Position numbers and translations under genes: made by a program. Below, piece after piece: positions 38,027 to 50,952 of a stretch of DNA of 64,000 nt. Positions within the stretch are counted from its first letter, which is position 1. Every line of letters begins with the position of its first letter. The stretch is from contig NZ_JACCFY010000001.1 in the NCBI RefSeq assembly GCF_013410745.1, forward strand, positions 3,410,001 to 3,474,000, written 5' to 3'. This DNA is from Nesterenkonia xinjiangensis. GTDB lineage: Bacteria; Actinomycetota; Actinomycetes; Actinomycetales; Micrococcaceae. The notes beneath the pieces were generated by a model, which saw only the letters and a list, made by a program, of their open reading frames with translations, was not told the origin of the DNA and did no database searches.

Positions 38027-38062
38027 GCTCGGCGCCGATTCGCTAGCCCGGTTCACCTGCTG

Positions 38063-38068
38063 GATAAT
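38063..38068 (+). promoter_or_regulatory. -10 hexamer GATAAT for a leaderless olefin operon
   Basis: GATAAT (5 of 6 to TATAAT) ends 6 nt before the GTG at 38075. The intervening GGAGCA could act as a very close ribosome site, but the spacing fits leaderless initiation better. No clear -35 is seen. Confidence 0.5.
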
Positions 38069-38074
38069 GGAGCA

Positions 38075-39103
38075 GTGCCAGGAAACGCGACTTTTCACCA
38101 CCGCAACGCAGCCCTGCTGTCCGTGGCCGAGGTTCAGGCCCCGGTTCCGCTCACGTCGAGGGATCTCGACCGCCGCCTGGCTGACGCCCTGAAGCGGCTC
38201 AAGCTCCCCCAGGGCCTGCTCCAGCGGGTCGCCGGGGTGAAGACGCGACGCAACTGGGAGCGGGCCGGCGATGTCCGTGCCGGGACGGTCGAGGCCGGGC
38301 GCCGGGCGCTGCAGGCCGCGGCGATAGACCCTGCCGACGTCTCGGTGATGATCAACACGTCGGTGACCCGGGAGCATCTCGAGCCCTCCGTCGCCGTCGG
38401 CATCCACCATGATCTGGGGCTGCCCAGCTCGGCGATGAACTTCGACATCACCAACGCCTGCCTGGGGTTCGTCAATGCGATGACCCTGGCCAGCTCGCTC
38501 ATCGACGCCGGGCAGGCGACCTATGTGCTCATCGTCAACGGTGAGGACGCCCGGAAGGTCCAGGACGCCACCGTGGAGCGGATCAGCAGTCTGGAGTCGA
38601 TGGTCAGCCGGGAGGACTTCATGTCCGAGTTCGCCTCCTTGACCCTGGGCTCGGGTGCCGCGGCCGCGGTCGTCGGCCCGGCGGACGGCCACCCGGAGGG
38701 CCACCGGATCGTAGGAGGCGTCACGCGGGCCGCCACCCAGCATCACGGCCTGTGCGTCGGCGACCACCGCGGCATGTACACAGACTCCAGGGGGCTGCTC
38801 GACGGAGGTCTGGAGCTCGTCATGGACGCCTGGCAGGACGCGAAGGAGCACTTCGACTGGGAGTCGATGGACGCCTATGTCACCCACCAGGTCTCCTCGC
38901 TGCACACCGCCTCGATCATCAAGGCCGCCAAGCTGGACAAGAAACGGGTCCCGGTGACCTATCCGGAGCTGGGCAACGTGGGCCCCGCCTCACTGCCCAT
39001 CACCCTCTCCCGTGAGGCCCCCCGGCTCTCGCCAGGCTCGAGGGTGCTCTGCATGGGAGTGGGATCCGGGCTCAACACGGCCATGGTGGAGATCGCATGG
39101 TGA
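38075..39103 (+). CDS. oleA: OleA: thiolase-superfamily acyl-CoA head-to-head condensing enzyme
   Basis: This 342-residue protein takes GTG 38075 (PGNATFHHRNAALLSV), matching OleA N-termini, rather than the ATG at 38012. The triad is in place: nucleophile Cys129 (ITNACLGFVN), His271 (VTHQVSS) and Asn301 (GNVGPAS). Glu103 in REHLEPS corresponds to the glutamate that OleA donates across the dimer for Claisen condensation, and helps separate it from FabH. OleA joins two fatty acyl-CoAs to a long 2-alkyl-3-ketoacid, the first step of long-chain olefin synthesis. Its stop overlaps the oleBC start. Confidence 0.94.
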   Translation: MPGNATFHHRNAALLSVAEVQAPVPLTSRDLDRRLADALKRLKLPQGLLQRVAGVKTRRNWERAGDVRAGTVEAGRRALQAAAIDPADVSVMINTSVTREHLEPSVAVGIHHDLGLPSSAMNFDITNACLGFVNAMTLASSLIDAGQATYVLIVNGEDARKVQDATVERISSLESMVSREDFMSEFASLTLGSGAAAAVVGPADGHPEGHRIVGGVTRAATQHHGLCVGDHRGMYTDSRGLLDGGLELVMDAWQDAKEHFDWESMDAYVTHQVSSLHTASIIKAAKLDKKRVPVTYPELGNVGPASLPITLSREAPRLSPGSRVLCMGVGSGLNTAMVEIAW

Positions 39104-41880
39104 GTGCACCCCGGCTGAGCTTCCGTTCCCTGCCCGCGGCCCACGCGCAGCTCCCTCCGAGGCGCCTGCCCGGCCTCGACCCAGCCTGGTCGCGGCTAGT
39201 GGCAGCGCGGACCACGGACGGAAGCCGCACCTTCCACGTGCTCGACACCGGACCGCTGCTCGCCGAGCGGGGCATCCCCGTCCGCGGCACCATCCTCGCG
39301 GTGCACGGCAACCCGACCTGGTCCTATCTATGGCGCGGGCTCCTCGCGGAATCGCTGCGACGCGGCGGCGCCGAGGGAACTGCCGCCGGCTGGCGGGTGA
39401 TCGCACCGGACCAGCTGGACATGGGCTTCTCCGAGCGCCTGGCCCACCCTCGGGCGCCCCGCCCCCAGCATGTCGGACAGCACGACGACGCCGGCTATCG
39501 GCGCCTGGAGCAGCGCCTCGACGACCTCGACGCCCTGATGGACGCGCTCGACGTCGACACCGCCCTGCCGCTGGTCACCCTCGGCCACGACTGGGGCGGC
39601 GTGATCTCGCTGGGCTGGGCCATGCGCCACCCGCACGACGTCGACGCCACCGCGACCTTGAACACCGCAGTGGACCATCCGGTGGAGGAGCACATCCCGG
39701 CGGCTCTGCGCGCCGCGATGGCGCCCGGGCTGCTCACCGCCTCCACCGTGGAGACCCGCGGCTTCCTCTCCGTGACGCTCTCGCTCGCCGAGCAGGGCCT
39801 GGACCCGGAGGTCCGGCGGGCCTATCTCGCCCCGTACCGGACCCGAGACCGTCGCGGCGGCGTCGGCGGCTTTGTCGCCGACATCCCCGCCCGAGCCGAG
39901 CACGTCTCCCGGGGCGCTCTCGAGGAGATCTCCTCCGCTCTGGGCGAGTGGACGAAGCCCTCGCTGGTGCTCTGGGGGCCGAAGGACCCGGTGTTCCAGG
40001 AACGCCACCTGGCCGATCTGCAGCGTCGACTCCCGCATGCCGACCTGCACCGTTTCGAAGGCTCCGGCCATCTGGTGGCCGAGGATCGGGACATCGCCTC
40101 GTCCGTGCTGACCTGGCTGGAGGGCCTCACCTGGACCGACGGGCAGCTCGTCCCGGAGATCGGAGGGCGCCGATCCCCCGAACCTGCCGCCGAGATCGAC
40201 GGACTGCACGCGCAGCTGGCGGAGATGACCGCCGGCTGGCGTCGGGGATCACCCGCCGTGGTGGACATGACCGGGGAGGAACCGGCGACCCTGAGCTGGC
40301 AGGAGCTCTCCGCGCGCATCGACGCACTCGCCCGCGGTCTGAGCGAGCTCGGTGTCGCCCGCGGCGACCGGGTCTCGCTCCTGGTCCCCCCGGGCAATGA
40401 TCTGACCGTGGTGCTCTACGCCTGTCTGCGCGTCGGCGCGGTGGCCGTCGTCGCGGACGCCGGCCTGGGCGTGCGCGGGATGACGCGGGCGGCCCGCAGC
40501 GCCCGTCCGGAATGGATCATCGGTGCCACCCCGGGCCTTGCCCTGGCCCGCGCGTTCGGATGGCCGGGTCGACGCATCAGCGTCCAGGCGCTCTCGAGCC
40601 GCCAGGCTCGGCTGCTGGGCACCGTCGCCTCGGTGGAGCGGCTGCTGCGCAGCCATGTGGGACGCACACCTGAGGTCCCCGCTCCTGCTCCGGAGGACGA
40701 GGCTGCGGTGCTCTTCACCTCAGGGTCCACCGGCCCCGCCAAAGGCGTGATCTACACCCATGGCCGGCTCGCCGCCCTGGTCGCCCTGCTGCGCCGACAG
40801 TTCGACGTCGTCCCCGGCTCCTCGCTGATCGCGGGCTTCGCGCCGTTCGCGCTGCTCGGTCCGGCCATCGGCGCGACCTCGGTGACCCCGGACATGTCGG
40901 TGACGAAACCCGCCACGCTGACCGCCGTCGCCGTGGCCGAGGCGGCGCTGGCCGGCGAGGCCACGATGTTCTTCGGCTCCCCCGCGGCGCTGCGCAACGT
41001 GGTGGCCACCGGCGCGGACCTCGACCCCGAGCAGCGCGCCGCCCTGCGCCGGATCGCTCTGGTGCTCTCCGCCGGGGCCCCGGTGCACCCGGACCTGCTG
41101 GACGCCGTCCAGGAGCTGTTCCCGACTGCGGAGATCCATACTCCCTACGGCATGACTGAAGGGCTGCTGCAGGCAGACATCGATCGTGGCCAGGTGCATG
41201 AGGCTATGGCCACCCGGCAGAGCGGTGTATGTGTGGGACGTCCGGTGGCCGGAGTCCACGTGGCTTTGGCTCCCCTGGACGCCGAGGGCCGCCCCGCCGA
41301 GGAGCTCGTCGTCCTGCAGGAGCCGCCCCAGCCCGAGGCTGTGGGCGTGCTCGCCGAGGTCGTCGTCTCCGCCGCGCACATGAAGGCCGGCTACGACCGC
41401 CTGTGGGACACCGACCGTGCCAGCAGCCGCGACGATGCCGACGGCCTGCTCTGGCACCGGACCAATGACGTCGGACACGTCGATGCCGAGGGCCGGCTGT
41501 GGATCGAAGGGCGCCTGCAGCACGTGATCACCGCCCCCGGAGGGCCTGTCGGTCCCGGGTCGGTGGAAACCCCCGTCGACGCTCTCGAGGAGGTCGCCCG
41601 CAGCGCGGCCGTCGGCGTAGGGCCCGTCGGCACCCAGTCCGTGGTGGTGATCGTGGAGCCCCAGACAGATCCGGGCGAGCTGTCGACCGGTCGATCCCCA
41701 CTGGCCACCCCCGAGTTCGCCGCCGCCGTGCGAGGCGCCGCGGGGGACGTCCCCGTCTCCGCCGTGCTGGTGCTCGAGGAGCTTCCCACCGACATCCGCC
41801 ACAACTCGAAGATCGACCGCACCCGACTCGCCGTCTGGGCCGACCGCGCACTGACCGGAAGGAGGCCCGGCACACCGTGA
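39097..41880 (+). CDS. oleBC: OleBC fusion: beta-lactone decarboxylase plus beta-lactone synthetase
   Basis: This 927-residue two-enzyme fusion overlaps oleA by 7 nt. Residues about 40-350 are OleB, an alpha/beta hydrolase of the haloalkane-dehalogenase type: VHGNPTWSYLWR, nucleophile Asp165 in GHDWGG and catalytic His325 in GSGHLVAED. Residues about 365-927 are OleC, an AMP-forming-ligase-like enzyme: VLFTSGSTGPAKGVIYTHGR (near 539), TPYGMTEG, and a C-terminal domain with the lysine in RHNSKIDRTRL. OleC converts the beta-hydroxyacid to a beta-lactone with ATP; OleB decarboxylates it to a cis-olefin. The fusion is a hallmark of Micrococcus-type clusters. Confidence 0.94.
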   Translation: MVSAPRLSFRSLPAAHAQLPPRRLPGLDPAWSRLVAARTTDGSRTFHVLDTGPLLAERGIPVRGTILAVHGNPTWSYLWRGLLAESLRRGGAEGTAAGWRVIAPDQLDMGFSERLAHPRAPRPQHVGQHDDAGYRRLEQRLDDLDALMDALDVDTALPLVTLGHDWGGVISLGWAMRHPHDVDATATLNTAVDHPVEEHIPAALRAAMAPGLLTASTVETRGFLSVTLSLAEQGLDPEVRRAYLAPYRTRDRRGGVGGFVADIPARAEHVSRGALEEISSALGEWTKPSLVLWGPKDPVFQERHLADLQRRLPHADLHRFEGSGHLVAEDRDIASSVLTWLEGLTWTDGQLVPEIGGRRSPEPAAEIDGLHAQLAEMTAGWRRGSPAVVDMTGEEPATLSWQELSARIDALARGLSELGVARGDRVSLLVPPGNDLTVVLYACLRVGAVAVVADAGLGVRGMTRAARSARPEWIIGATPGLALARAFGWPGRRISVQALSSRQARLLGTVASVERLLRSHVGRTPEVPAPAPEDEAAVLFTSGSTGPAKGVIYTHGRLAALVALLRRQFDVVPGSSLIAGFAPFALLGPAIGATSVTPDMSVTKPATLTAVAVAEAALAGEATMFFGSPAALRNVVATGADLDPEQRAALRRIALVLSAGAPVHPDLLDAVQELFPTAEIHTPYGMTEGLLQADIDRGQVHEAMATRQSGVCVGRPVAGVHVALAPLDAEGRPAEELVVLQEPPQPEAVGVLAEVVVSAAHMKAGYDRLWDTDRASSRDDADGLLWHRTNDVGHVDAEGRLWIEGRLQHVITAPGGPVGPGSVETPVDALEEVARSAAVGVGPVGTQSVVVIVEPQTDPGELSTGRSPLATPEFAAAVRGAAGDVPVSAVLVLEELPTDIRHNSKIDRTRLAVWADRALTGRRPGTP

Positions 41881-42932
41881 CCGCCGCCACCCGGCTGGAG
41901 GACCAGCCCACCATCCCCCGGGAGATTCCTCCCGGTTCGCGGGTGCTGCTGACCGGCGCCTCAGGCCTGTTGGGTCGCAGCCTGGCCCGCCGCCTGGCCG
42001 AGACCGGCTACGTGGTCACCACGCTGCAGCGCGGCCCGTCCCAGCTCGAGGGCGTCCGGGATGTCCGCGGATCGCTGACCGATCGGGCCGTCGTGGCCGA
42101 GGCCATGGCAGACCAGGACGCCGTGGTCCATATGGCCGCGAAGGTCTCGGTCTCCGGCCGTCAGCAGGACTTCGTGGACGTGAACATCCATGGCACGGAG
42201 AACGTCCTCGACGCGGCCGAGGCCGCCGGGGTGGAACACGTGCTGCACGTGTCCTCCCCCTCGGTGGCCCACTCCGGCGCCTCTCTGGTCGGCGCGGGTG
42301 CAGGTGACCCGGACCCCGAGGCGGCCGAGGGACACTATGCCCGCACCAAGGCGGAGGCCGAGCTGCTCGTGCAGGCCCGGGCCGCCGCCGGGATGAAGGT
42401 GCTGGTCATCCGCCCTCACCTGATCTGGGGGCCCGGGGACGGTCAGCTGACGCGCCGCATCGTGGACCGTGCCCGCTCCGGACGGCTGCCGCTGATCGGC
42501 TCCGGGGCTGCCCTAGTGGACACCCTGTACATCGACAACGCCGTGGACGCCTTCGCGGCCGGGCTGCGTCGGCTGCCCGCCATCCATGGGAAGCGCCTGG
42601 TGCTCACCAACGGCGAGCCCCGACCGATCGGAGAACTGATCATGGGCATCGCGGCCGCCGGTGGGGCTCGACGTCCCCGGCTGCGCATCGCTCCAGGCGC
42701 GGCCAAGGCCGCCGGACGCGCCGTGGAGACGCTCTGGGGGCTGGCCGAGCGCGCCTTCGGCGACTTCGAGGACGAACCGCCGATGACGAGATTCCTGGCC
42801 GAGCAGCTCTCGACCGCCCACTGGTTCGACCAGCGCGAGACCCGAGAGGCGTTGGACTGGGCCCCAGCGGTCAGCATCGACGAGGGACTGGCCCGCCTCG
42901 CAGAGCATGTGCGTCGCACCGGCGGTGTCTGA
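41877..42932 (+). CDS. oleD: OleD: NADPH-dependent 2-alkyl-3-ketoacid reductase (extended SDR)
   Basis: This 351-residue protein begins at GTG 41877, overlapping the oleBC stop by 4 nt. It is an extended short-chain dehydrogenase: cofactor loop LLTGASGLLGRSLARR (about 24-39), VVHMAAKVSVSGR, the Ser-bearing VSSPSVAHSG, and the catalytic Y154-A-R-T-K158. It reduces the OleA product to the 2-alkyl-3-hydroxyacid used by OleC. The order oleA-oleBC-oleD with overlapping frames makes one operon that carries the complete pathway from acyl-CoA to olefin. It converges with the ABC exporter gene, only 3 nt from its stop. Confidence 0.94.
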   Translation: MTAATRLEDQPTIPREIPPGSRVLLTGASGLLGRSLARRLAETGYVVTTLQRGPSQLEGVRDVRGSLTDRAVVAEAMADQDAVVHMAAKVSVSGRQQDFVDVNIHGTENVLDAAEAAGVEHVLHVSSPSVAHSGASLVGAGAGDPDPEAAEGHYARTKAEAELLVQARAAAGMKVLVIRPHLIWGPGDGQLTRRIVDRARSGRLPLIGSGAALVDTLYIDNAVDAFAAGLRRLPAIHGKRLVLTNGEPRPIGELIMGIAAAGGARRPRLRIAPGAAKAAGRAVETLWGLAERAFGDFEDEPPMTRFLAEQLSTAHWFDQRETREALDWAPAVSIDEGLARLAEHVRRTGGV

Positions 42933-42935
42933 GGC

Positions 42936-44786
42936 TCAGCGCGCGGCGACCTCCATCCGCAGGGCGGAGACGAGGTCTCGGTAGATCTCCGAGCTGCCCA
43001 GCAGCTCCGCGTGGGTGCCGGCGGCCACGATCTCACCGGCATCCATGACCAGGATCCGGTCGGCGTCGACCACTGTGGACAGTCGATGCGCGATCGTCAC
43101 CACCGCCGCATCTCGTGCATGCTCGGCGATCGTGGCCTGGATGGCGGCCTCGGTGATGCCGTCCACCTGGGCGGTGGCCTCGTCGAGCAGGAGCACGGCG
43201 GGACGGGCGAGGAGCGCGCGTGCCAGGGCGATCCGCTGACGCTGTCCGCCGGAGACGTTGGTGTCGGTCAACGGAGTGTCCAGGCCTTGCGCGAGCCGGT
43301 CCGCCAGGTCCCCCAGATGCAGCCGCTGCAGCACGGCCTGAAGCTGATCCTCACCCGTCTGCGGGGCCGAGAACAGCAGGTTCTCCCGGACCGTGCCCGG
43401 TACGACCGGCGTCTCCTGCTCCACGTAGGCGAAGGCCGCGCGCACCTGGGCGTGGCTGAGCTCCGCGTAGGGGCGCCCGCCCAGCCGGATCAGTCCGGAC
43501 TCCGGCTCCAGGAAGCGCATCATCAGCGAGAGCAGGGTCGTCTTCCCTCCACCGGATGCCCCCACCAGCGCCAGATGCCCACGCGCGGGCACCTCGATGC
43601 TGACCCCCTTGACTGCGGCCGGGGCATCCGCCCCGTAGCGGGCGGTCACCCGGTCCAGCTCCACCACCGGAGACTCCGCCAGCCCGTCCTCCGGCGGCTC
43701 CCTCCTGTCCAGCACCCCGGAGGCGACGGTCGACATGCGCCGCACGGCCGTCTCGACGTCCTCATGCTCCTCCCCCAGGACACGCACGTCGGCCCGCGGG
43801 TCCTCCACGGGCATGGCCTCCACCTGGCTGATGCGGCCGGCCGCAGCCAGGCCTGACTGCAGCGTGGTCAGGTTCTGGGTGAGCTCCATCAGGGGCCCGG
43901 TGAGTCCCCAGACGTAGAGCAGGAAGGCCACCATCGTGGAGACGCCCATCTCTCCGTCGGCCACCCTCCACGCCCCGAAGGCCAGCACCATGATCACTGC
44001 CCCGTCCAGGCCGACGCCGGCCACGGTCCACGCCCCAGCCTGGATGCGCACCGAGCGCAGGCTGTACCGCCTGGAATCGCCGACATGCCGCATGAGCGCG
44101 TCGAAGCGTCGCGGCTCGGCCCCAGAAGACTTCACGGTCTTGATCGCTCGCACGGTCCCCTCCAGCTCGGACCCGAGATCCCCCAGGGCGGCCTGCGCCT
44201 TCTCCTCCACCGTGGCGATCCGGGGCATCAGCACCGCGAAGATCGCCAGCACCAGGATGACGGAGCCCAGCGTCAGCCCCAGCAGAGGCAGGTCGAGGCG
44301 GGCCATCAGCACCAGGGATCCGATGATCATCATGGTGCCGTTGATCAGCCCGATGATCGCTGTGGAGGCCGCCTGGTTCAGCAGCACCGTGTCCGAGGTG
44401 ACCCGGGTGACCAGTTCGCCTGGACCGCGCCGCAGCAGTTCGAAGACGCGGGCACCCAGGTAGCGCAGGATCATGCGTCGCCGGGCGTCATGGACGATGT
44501 CCTCGGCCAGGCGCCCCAGCAGGACCCATTGGACCCAGCCCAACCCCGCACCGAGGATCAGCAGTCCCACCAGCACCAGCACGGGATCACGCAGCGAGGC
44601 ACCTTCAGTCAGGCTGTCCAGCACCCATTTGGTGACCATGGGGCTGGCCAGACCCATGGCGGAGACCGCCAGGGAGAGCAGGAGCCCAAGTCCGAGCACC
44701 GGCAGATGAGGTCGGGCGAAGGACCACAGGACCCGCAGTCGAGTCGAGGAGGAGGCCGACGTGACCTCGGTTGATGATTCAATCAT
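42936..44786 (-). CDS. ABC exporter, fused permease/ATPase half-transporter
   Basis: This 616-residue protein has an N-terminal type I exporter membrane domain of six helices (about 25-305; e.g. LPVLGLGLLLSLAVSAMGL, VILVLAIFAVLM). Its nucleotide-binding domain (about 375-610) has Walker A GASGGGKTT, a signature VSGGQRQR (Val replacing the usual Leu), Walker B VLLLDEATAQVD and H-loop TIAHRLST. It should act as a homodimer or as one half of a heterodimer; no second half is adjacent. The divergent TetR gene and the palindrome between them suggest local repression. Substrate unknown: drug, lipid or siderophore export are all possible. Confidence 0.92.
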   Translation of the reverse strand: MIESSTEVTSASSSTRLRVLWSFARPHLPVLGLGLLLSLAVSAMGLASPMVTKWVLDSLTEGASLRDPVLVLVGLLILGAGLGWVQWVLLGRLAEDIVHDARRRMILRYLGARVFELLRRGPGELVTRVTSDTVLLNQAASTAIIGLINGTMMIIGSLVLMARLDLPLLGLTLGSVILVLAIFAVLMPRIATVEEKAQAALGDLGSELEGTVRAIKTVKSSGAEPRRFDALMRHVGDSRRYSLRSVRIQAGAWTVAGVGLDGAVIMVLAFGAWRVADGEMGVSTMVAFLLYVWGLTGPLMELTQNLTTLQSGLAAAGRISQVEAMPVEDPRADVRVLGEEHEDVETAVRRMSTVASGVLDRREPPEDGLAESPVVELDRVTARYGADAPAAVKGVSIEVPARGHLALVGASGGGKTTLLSLMMRFLEPESGLIRLGGRPYAELSHAQVRAAFAYVEQETPVVPGTVRENLLFSAPQTGEDQLQAVLQRLHLGDLADRLAQGLDTPLTDTNVSGGQRQRIALARALLARPAVLLLDEATAQVDGITEAAIQATIAEHARDAAVVTIAHRLSTVVDADRILVMDAGEIVAAGTHAELLGSSEIYRDLVSALRMEVAAR

Positions 44787-44796
44787 GACACCTAGT

Positions 44797-44812
44797 GAGA
44801 CATATTTGTCCC
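44797..44812. promoter_or_regulatory. Imperfect 16-bp palindrome, candidate TetR operator
   Basis: GAGACATATTTGTCCC matches its reverse complement at 12 of 16 positions (GACA-N4-TGTC core). It sits 11-26 nt upstream of the exporter start in the 81-nt intergenic region shared with the TetR gene. A TTGACC at 44818-44823 (reverse strand) lies just outside it. Binding by the adjacent TetR is an inference from position. Confidence 0.45.
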
Positions 44813-44855
44813 GTATTGGTCAAGTGGTGGCACTCTACAGGCCATGAAAGTCCGG

Positions 44856-44861
44856 TAGGCT
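44856..44861 (+). promoter_or_regulatory. -10 hexamer TAGGCT for a leaderless tetR transcript
   Basis: TAGGCT is followed by 6 nt (gatggc) and the ATG at 44868, with no Shine-Dalgarno. Confidence 0.5.
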
Positions 44862-44867
44862 GATGGC

Positions 44868-45473
44868 ATGAGCGATCAGAACACCGCGGCACCCTCCGAG
44901 CCCAGCAGCACCGCCGCCAGGACGCGCCAGGCGATCCTGCTGGCCGCCGTGGAGGTCCTCTCCGTCAATCCCGGCGCCGCACTCGGTGAGGTGGCCACCC
45001 GGGCCGGGGTCTCGCGCAGCACCTTGCACCGGCACTTCGCCGATCGCGCCGCACTGCGTCAGGGCGTGGACTCGCTGGCGGAGGACCAGTGGAAGCTGGC
45101 AGTCCACAGCGCCCGCCTGGCGGACGGCACCGGTTTTGAGGCCTTTCGCCGCCTGTGCGGTGAGCTCATCAGCCGAATCGACACGCTGGCCTGGTGGATG
45201 GCCTGTGAGAGCGCGGGTTCTGAGGGCGAGGGTTCCGAAGGCGAGGAGTGGTCACAGGAGGACGCACTGATCGCGGAGGCGCTGACACGCGGCAAGCAGG
45301 ACGGCAGCGTGGACCCGGCACTCAGCGTGGAATGGGTCAGCAACCTCACCTGGGCCACGCTCTATGCGATCCGTTTCGTCCCCGCCCAGGGCGGCCTGAG
45401 CCCTTTCGAGGCCCGTCAGCAGGGCCTGCGAACTCTCCTGAAGGCGGTGGCAGCCGATCCCGCCGCTTCCTGA
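44868..45473 (+). CDS. TetR/AcrR family transcriptional regulator
   Basis: This 201-residue protein has a TetR-type DNA-binding domain (about 17-65): ARTRQAILLAAVEVLSVNPGAALGEVATRAGVSRSTLHRHFADRAAL, with the recognition helix VSRSTLHRHF. The C-terminal ligand-binding domain is all-helical and carries a short acidic repeat (EGEGSEGEE). It is divergent from the ABC exporter across 81 nt, the usual layout for a self-regulating efflux repressor. The effector molecule is unknown. It converges with the Pat-like gene. Confidence 0.93.
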   Translation: MSDQNTAAPSEPSSTAARTRQAILLAAVEVLSVNPGAALGEVATRAGVSRSTLHRHFADRAALRQGVDSLAEDQWKLAVHSARLADGTGFEAFRRLCGELISRIDTLAWWMACESAGSEGEGSEGEEWSQEDALIAEALTRGKQDGSVDPALSVEWVSNLTWATLYAIRFVPAQGGLSPFEARQQGLRTLLKAVAADPAAS

Positions 45474-48348: not shown

Positions 48349-50952
48349 ATGGCCCGCCGTTCGACTTCCCGCTCCCCGCGCTCCGGCTCCGAGCAGCCCC
48401 CGGTGACACCGGAGGATCAGATCGTCGACATCGACGTCTCGGCGGAGATGGAGACCTCGTTTCTGGAGTACGCCTATTCGGTGATCTACTCCCGCGCCCT
48501 GCCGGACGCCCGGGACGGCCTGAAGCCGGTGCAGCGGCGGATCCTGTACATGATGTCCCAGATGGGACTGCGCCCCGAGAAGGGGCATGTGAAGTCGGCC
48601 CGCGTGGTCGGCGAGGTGATGGGGAAGCTGCACCCGCACGGCGACGCGGCGATCTATGACGCGCTGGTGCGCATGGCACAGTCCTTCTCGCTGCGCCTGC
48701 CCCTGGTGGACGGGCATGGCAACTTCGGCTCGCTCGACGACGGACCGGCCGCTCCGCGCTACACGGAGGCGCGCATGACGGCGGCGTCGGTGTCGATGAC
48801 CACCGACCTCGACGAGGACGTCGTCGACTTCGAGCCGAACTACGACAATCAGCTCACCCAGCCGTCAGTGCTGCCCAGCGCGTTCCCGAACCTGCTGGTC
48901 AACGGCGCCTCCGGCATCGCGGTGGGCATGGCCACCAACATGGCCCCGCACAATCTGGGCGAGGTGGTCGCCGGAGCCCGGCACCTGATCGAGTACCCCG
49001 AGGCCACGCTCGAGGACCTGATGGTCCACATCCCCGGGCCGGACCTGCCTTCTGGCGGACGGATCGTGGGGCTGGACGGCATCCGTGATGCCTACCGGAC
49101 CGGCCGCGGATCGTTCAAGACCCGAGCCACGGTCTCCATCGAGCAGGTCTCCGCACGGAAGACCGGGATCGTGGTCACCGAGCTGCCGTACATGGTCGGC
49201 CCGGAGAAGGTCATCGAGAAGATCAAGGACGCGGTGCAGTCGAAGAAGCTGGCCGGCATCTCCGACGTCCTCGACCTCACGGACCGCAAGCACGGGCTCC
49301 GGATGATCATCGAGCTCAAAGCCGGGTTCAACCCCCAGGCGGTCCTCGCCCAGCTCTACAAGCTCACTCCGCTGGAGGACTCCTTCGGGATCAACAATGT
49401 CGCTCTGGTGGAGGGCCAGCCGCGGACGCTGGGGCTCGTGGAGATGCTGCAGGTCTACGTGGGCCACCGGATCTCCGTGGTGCGTCGCCGCACCGCCTAC
49501 CGGCTGAAGAAGCGTCAGGACCGGCTGCACCTGGTCGAGGGGCTGCTGATCGCGATCCTCGACATCGACGAGGTCATCCAGATCATCCGCGCGGCTGAGG
49601 ACACCGCCACCGCGCGGGAGCGGCTGATGACGATCTTCGACCTGACCCACCTCCAGGCCGAGCACATCCTGGAGCTGCGGCTTCGTCAGCTGACCCGCTA
49701 CTCCGCGCTGGAGCTGGAGCAGGAGAAGCAGCGCCTAGAGGAGGAGATCTCCGAGCTGCAGGCCATCCTGGACTCGGAGCTGCGGCTTCGTGAGGTGGTC
49801 TCCGACGAGCTGGAGCAGGTCGCCCTCGCCCATGGGGATGACCGGCGCACCCAGCTGGTCGAGTCGGAGACGCTGGCCGCACCGGCACCGGCGAAGGCTG
49901 CCTCCTCTGACGAGACCGCCTCTGCCCTGCAGATCGCCGACAGCCCATGCTGGGCCCTGCTGTCCACCTCGGGTCAGCTGGCCCGGACCACGGACCGTTC
50001 CGGGCTGGTCCACCCGACCCGGCGCGGCCGGCACGACGCCCTGATCTCGATGGTGCCGGTCTCCGCACGTGGAGAGATCGGCGCGGTCACCTCGCTGGGC
50101 AGGATGATCCGCGTTCCAGTGGTGGACATGCCTGCTGTGGAGGTCGCCGCCGGGAAAGTGAATCTGAATCACGGGGCCAAGGTCAAGGACTTCCTCTCCC
50201 TGGAGCGCAAGGAGGAGCTGGTGTCTTTCGTCCCACTGGACGCTGTGATCGCCCTGGGCACCGGCGCAGGCCGCGTGAAGCGGGTCAATCCGGACTACCC
50301 GCTCAACCGTGATGAGTGGGAGGTCATCTCACTGAAGGGCCGCGACCGCGTGATCGGAGCGCAGGTGGCCGCCGAGGAGCGCGACCAGCTGGTCTTCGTC
50401 ACCGCCGGCGCCCAGCTGCTGCGCTTCGACGCCGCACTGGTGCGCCCGCAGGGGCGCACGGCCGCCGGCATGGCCGGGATCAAGATCGCCGACGGCGACG
50501 AGGCCATCAGCTTCACCGTGGTGCCGGCCGCCGGGCTCGGCGACGCGCAGGGTGGCACGGCCGAGGAGCTTGCCGGCTGGACGCCGGTGGTGGTCACAGT
50601 CGCCGCAGGTGACGAGCCGCTGGAAGGCTTCGAAGCCGGCAGCGTGAAGGTGACCGAGTTCTCCGAGTTCCCGGTCAAGGGCCGCTCCACCGCCGGGGTG
50701 CGCGCTCACCGGTTCCTCCGTGGGGAGGACCGGCTGCGGCTGGCCTGGGCAGGAATGGGCCCCGCCCTGGGTGCGGCCAGGAACGGCTCCGCCCGCGTGC
50801 TTCCCGCGGAGATGGCCCGCCGCGACGGGTCGGGAGTCCCGCTGGACCAGACCGTGGAGGCGGTGGCCTCGAGTCCGGAGGCGCTCACCCGCGTGGCCGG
50901 GGCACGGATCGCCGCAGCCGGGGAGGCCGACGGTGCGGGCGACGAGGCCTGA
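48349..50952 (+). CDS. parC: DNA topoisomerase IV subunit A (ParC-type)
   Basis: This 867-residue type IIA topoisomerase A subunit has the GyrA/ParC breakage-reunion domain (about 35-500): [22 protein letters not shown] and catalytic Tyr138 in APRYTEARM. Its C-terminal beta-pinwheel has repeats such as GRMIRVPV and GRVKRVNP but no canonical GyrA-box, favouring ParC. The quinolone-contact positions read GDAAIYD: Ala100 stands where E. coli ParC has Ser80, and Asp104 where it has Glu84. The ParE partner is not in the window. A coiled-coil segment near 455-500 ([18 protein letters not shown]) is normal for the family. Confidence 0.93.

Follow-up and report, generated by a model that had tools for sequence, protein, structure and literature searches.

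Does the group of three overlapping genes at positions 38075-42932 of the Nesterenkonia xinjiangensis DNA analysed here (64,000 nucleotides in all, hereafter the window) encode a complete pathway to olefins, and is its fused middle gene an oddity of this organism or a trait shared with its relatives? The ole genes were reportedly first described in 2010, in work by Beller and by Sukovich. Judged from sequence, the locus is almost certainly an ordinary actinobacterial-type Ole olefin operon.

The gene structure agrees with the complete oleA-oleBC-oleD operon in overlapping frames that an initial annotation had proposed. The genes lie in tandem on the + strand, all three frames are open, and the overlaps amount to 7 nt between oleA and oleBC (ATGGTGA) and 4 nt between oleBC and oleD (GTGA). 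The first gene, oleA (38075..39103), encodes a condensing thiolase of 342 aa and is followed by oleBC (39097..41880, 927 aa, with an alternative GTG start at 39100). The latter comprises an OleB half (residues 1-345, 39097..40131), an alpha/beta hydrolase resembling haloalkane dehalogenases; a linker (residues about 346-380, 40132..40236) whose bounds are approximate and were set by the analyst; and an OleC half (residues about 381-927, 40237..41880) with an AMP-forming ligase fold, a predicted beta-lactone synthetase. The last gene, oleD (41877..42932), encodes an epimerase/SDR-type reductase of 351 aa. The term 'head-to-head', used in the initial annotation, does not describe the arrangement of these tandem genes and can only refer to the chemistry; the start assigned there, 38063, is not a start codon, as oleA begins with GTG at 38075. 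The window covers bases 3410001-3474000 of a contig of 3.57 Mb. When the genome of the organism was searched with OleBC, one strong place was found, the seven other matches having E values of 2.3e-18 or worse.

Position 38063 is the first base of a -10-like box, GATAAT (38063..38068, + strand), situated 6 nt before the oleA GTG, with a -35-like element, TTCGCT (38039..38044, + strand), 18 nt before the box. By established promoter geometry, a -10 box 6 nt upstream places the transcription start on the GTG, and oleA is predicted to be leaderless, with transcription starting at or next to 38075. This leaderless-type promoter, also part of the initial annotation, is supported by its conservation within the genus: the box stands exactly 6 nt before an in-frame GTG in 24/24 readable Nesterenkonia rows, in the forms GATAAT, GATACT, CATAAT or TAGCAT. 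These rows represent 23 genomes (of 25 rows examined, L016 was excluded because its 5' end is broken, and L009 and L095, which share an identical stretch, both represent N. cremea); G016, L098 and L099 lack the oleA start and fall outside the comparison. The GTG of some species is found 15 to 42 nt further upstream than the position matching the oleA start of the window, and the box shifts along with it. The -35-like site, 18 nt further upstream, reads TTCGC in 16 of the 24 rows, TTAGC in two and neither in the remaining six. As a background, one of the 2591 GTG triplets on both strands of the window, probably that of oleA itself, carries any of the four boxes under a strict pattern written after the rows had been viewed, and a looser pattern matches 22 of the 2591. 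The box was not found in 13 rows from other genera, each inspected at one candidate start. Literature on leaderless oleA or olefin genes, judged by listing, comprised a general review only.

All catalytic residues named in the initial annotation were recovered by script from the translations, including E103, C129, H271 and N301 of OleA, D165 of OleBC, and Y154 and K158 of OleD. OleA thus carries Cys-His-Asn and a Glu followed by Pro (E103-P104), and the AMP-ligase loop that had been placed near residue 539 is SGSTG at 542-546, residue 539 being L, three residues ahead of it. Conservation across loci is nearly complete for OleA (E103 98/98, C129 97/98, H271 105/105, N301 105/105) and complete for the OleB half (N72 106/106, D165 108/108, H325 110/110), for K905 of the OleC half (111/111) and for OleD (Y154 and K158, both 105/105), where each row is a locus (a few genomes contribute two) and counts only if its best match covers the residue. 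OleA matches 3row_A at 2.7e-74 with all four residues aligned; the file label is 3-oxoacyl-[ACP] synthase III, and we take 3row to be Xanthomonas OleA. Because of this match and because Nesterenkonia loci whose flanks are complete show OleA, OleBC and OleD matches in this order, the operon is not a chance arrangement.

Family models give a more mixed picture. Pfam assigns ketoacyl-synthase-III and thiolase domains to OleA, hydrolase and AMP-binding domains within the single 927-aa frame to OleBC, and epimerase/SDR domains to OleD, and OleA passes the NCBIfam model NF006720 (3-oxoacyl-ACP synthase III; 424 bits, cut-off 285). The OleC half scores below both olefin beta-lactone synthetase models, NF045786 (OlefBLtnSynXan; 293 bits, cut-off 900) and NF045785 (OlefBLtnSynShew; 225 bits, cut-off 850), and OleD falls below NF042422 (2-alkyl-3-oxoalkanoate reductase; 282 bits, cut-off 580), which is still its best NCBIfam match. 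The best NCBIfam match of OleBC is the broader ligase model NF006754, likewise below its cut-off (337 bits against 478). These shortfalls are a point against the Ole assignment suggested by sequence.

Under the Ole reading, transcription from the promoter would start on the oleA GTG and proceed through the three overlapping genes. Drawing on characterised relatives for every chemical step and for the product, OleA would by homology convert two acyl-CoA molecules into a beta-keto acid, OleD would reduce this acid, the OleC half of OleBC would close a beta-lactone at the expense of ATP, and the OleB half would decarboxylate the lactone to a cis internal alkene. The C25-C31 alkenes forecast in the initial annotation are in line with the mean of 27 to 29 carbons given for Micrococcales in the available text of PMC7158056. 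It is extremely improbable that the operon instead produces a beta-lactone natural product of the lipstatin type: relatives of OleA, OleC and OleD acting without OleB do make beta-lactones in other Actinobacteria, according to the available part of PMC7064751, whereas this operon has an OleB half joined in frame whose N72, D165 and H325 are intact and do not vary among the loci in which they were read. The complete Ole pathway, probably a working one, is the part of the earlier interpretation that stands, together with the OleBC fusion and the leaderless-type start.

The rarity that this interpretation implied for the operon and the fusion is not supported. The oleA, oleBC, oleD arrangement is a published Micrococcales operon in the portions of PMC7158056 and PMC7064751 that were available, the former including GC/MS of the olefins, and Robinson et al. 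(PMC7064751) reported the OleB-OleC fusion from Micrococcales and Granulosicoccus. At an E-value threshold of 1e-60, OleBC matches were present in 29/38 relatives, comprising the genome itself, 23/23 other Nesterenkonia and 5/14 others of the order. Order-wide, at 1e-40, 166/396 genomes and 43/109 genera had a match, and phylum-wide 28/396 genomes, with the organism's own genome counted in both cases.

The state of the fusion was judged at the OleB-OleC junction alone, in fetched loci taken mostly from the best-scoring matches. OleB and OleC share one frame in the organism's own genome and 21/23 other Nesterenkonia genomes of the numbered set, the exceptions being G013 (unread bases) and G016 (stops), and G008 being counted as fused at the junction though a frame break sits inside its OleB. 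The same holds for 15/15 other family members read (25 had a match in the order-wide search), for 33/33 genomes of the order outside the family, including 25 Brevibacterium (family f6, 25/25), and for 4/5 named loci, two of which repeat numbered genomes; the fifth, from Nesterenkonia sp. F, has a frame break. Family f6 was recognised as Brevibacterium since its locus L052 and the named Brevibacterium locus L097 show no difference across the 1,500 bases compared. Beyond the class, the genes are fused in 21 genomes (f32, 11; f45, 5; f60, 2; f69, 3). Separate genes were seen in seven genomes (f55, 4; f63, 3). In the class of G734, where 20 of the 66 genomes searched had a match, both states occur; since f45, f60 and f69 lie outside these 66 genomes, fused oleBC is present in at least two classes of Actinomycetota besides that of Nesterenkonia, a modest addition to its known range. 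Among related bacteria the fused middle gene is the rule rather than an oddity. A separate observation concerns L091 (G647, family f22 of the same class), in which an OleA-like match whose catalytic Cys is replaced by Ala lies beside OleC and OleD relatives; no OleB match was found in this locus, which is perhaps a beta-lactone natural product cluster.

A few congeners carry broken copies. The operon of G016 (L036) contains stops in a genome that is 62% complete, and that of G008 (L016) contains frame breaks in one that is 96% complete. For these two, as for G013 and Nesterenkonia sp. F, low completeness, unread bases or draft frameshifts seem a likelier cause than decay. They nonetheless provide the grounds for supposing that the operon could be decayed or silent in the present strain as well, a supposition we consider very unlikely, given that the window contains no such break and has three open frames, a conserved promoter sequence and intact residues.

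A further proposal holds that the fusion serves mainly to channel the beta-lactone directly from one active site to an adjoining one. In its favour, the AlphaFold2 model of OleBC (53 sequences; mean pLDDT 92.2, pTM 0.91) sets both domains with high overall confidence, and the fusion, which fixes a 1:1 ratio, is present in every sound Micrococcales locus whose junction was read. In contrast, OleB and OleC matches are separated by an unaligned stretch of variable length, 29 to 117 residues in the fused loci listed (N. cremea, 38; Nesterenkonia sp. GX14115, 43). This variation and the apparently low complexity of the stretch fit a tether better than a fixed tunnel, and lineages with separate oleB and oleC exist (the seven genomes of f55 and f63). 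Channelling as the main role appears doubtful. The Foldseek comparison of the OleBC model with the PDB is uninformative on how the two halves are arranged, since its best 50 hits, out of 1995, consist of AMP-forming ligases and adenylation domains.

With regard to the origin of the fusion, an OleC tree of 49 rows requires one change to part 38 fused from 6 separate rows, with five OleC-alone rows uncounted, two of which sit inside the fused part of the tree at contig ends. A single gain of the oleBC fusion is likely on this tree, read without a root. In the same tree, Nesterenkonia and Brevibacterium are sisters at 99/93. The fused OleC of L069 (G447, family f45) groups with f32 of another class (95/94), apart from four other f45 rows, possibly as a result of transfer.

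In a tree of OleA, OleB, OleC and OleD together (39 rows, quick method), Nesterenkonia, M. lylae (the sole Micrococcus) and Brevibacterium form one clade with SH-aLRT 100 whose inner branching order is open, and 15 other Micrococcaceae rows fall apart from it. The tree of ParC (31 rows, that of the window from parC at 48349-50952) runs against this grouping: 16 Micrococcaceae rows, M. lylae included, stand together at 100/99, independently of two outgroup rows that may be GyrA, and five Brevibacterium rows lie outside them at 100/100. Forcing the family together in the ole tree, with L074 left out, costs 209 log-likelihood units in an AU test (p 6.6e-37); as the test was run after the tree had been viewed, this p is too small and the likelihood gap is the better guide. 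The grouping with Brevibacterium against the ParC tree points to an old transfer of the ole genes of Nesterenkonia and M. lylae, in either direction. On balance, a fuller history seems somewhat favoured: a single, early origin of the fusion in Actinomycetota that predates Micrococcales, with retention in at least two further classes; an operon in Nesterenkonia and Micrococcus that stems from a long-ago exchange with the Brevibacterium lineage rather than from an inherited Micrococcaceae copy; and a leaderless promoter gained in Nesterenkonia and kept by the genus.

The surroundings of the operon are partly conserved within the genus. Both N. cremea and Nesterenkonia sp. GX14115 retain the left flank, which runs from DUF3159 to DUF5998. 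On the right, the window carries genes for an ABC exporter and a divergently oriented TetR regulator (42936-45473) between oleD and an acyl-CoA ligase gene. In N. cremea, oleD is followed by the acyl-CoA ligase gene and parC, and the exporter and regulator genes were not found at that place, a local insertion or loss. In GX14115, the region to the right of ole yielded no match to the acyl-CoA ligase, parC, ABC transporter or TetR gene. The open frame at 45518-48679 matches GNAT-type and ADP-forming acyl-CoA ligase models; apart from two general GNAT-sized models, none of these matches reaches its NCBIfam cut-off. Because the frame overruns the start of the divergent parC at 48349, its true start is probably lower.

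These results add Nesterenkonia to the genera of predicted alkene makers and raise no basic question; being compact and leaderless in type, such an operon may be convenient for work on olefins. No report of olefins or ole genes in Nesterenkonia was found in the partial literature covered, judged by listing, and the genus name has 0 occurrences in the available text of PMC7158056; for oleABCD in Acidimicrobiia, a class chosen as a guess, no literature was found. In that same available text, Surger et al. named Micrococcales in their discussion and conclusions as the only Gram-positive order with ole clusters, whereas their results use the word 'mostly' and mention two clusters in the Actinobacteria. 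The findings above qualify two statements of that paper, namely that within Actinobacteria ole clusters had been found in Micrococcales only and that lateral transfer was rare.

Compared with known systems, the window shares the four OleA residues with Xanthomonas and differs from it in the middle gene. In Xanthomonas, oleB and oleC are separate genes. The Brevibacterium ole operon is fused like that of the window, and none of 12 window neighbours was found around the one Brevibacterium locus compared (L097, 10-kb flanks). The Micrococcus operon is like that of the window in gene order, fusion and residues; the M. luteus oleA is Mlut_13230 (PMC7158056, available text), and M. luteus alkenes are treated in PMC5857589, likewise available in part. 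M. lylae (L100) shows 66% identity to the window in OleA, 56% in OleB, 56% in OleC and 59% in OleD, and parC was the only one of the 12 neighbours found in its locus, about 6.5 kb from oleA and upstream, whereas parC lies downstream in the window. The -10-like box 6 nt before the start was not seen at the corresponding place in M. lylae. The operon observed here is a new Nesterenkonia case of an already well-described actinobacterial Ole type.
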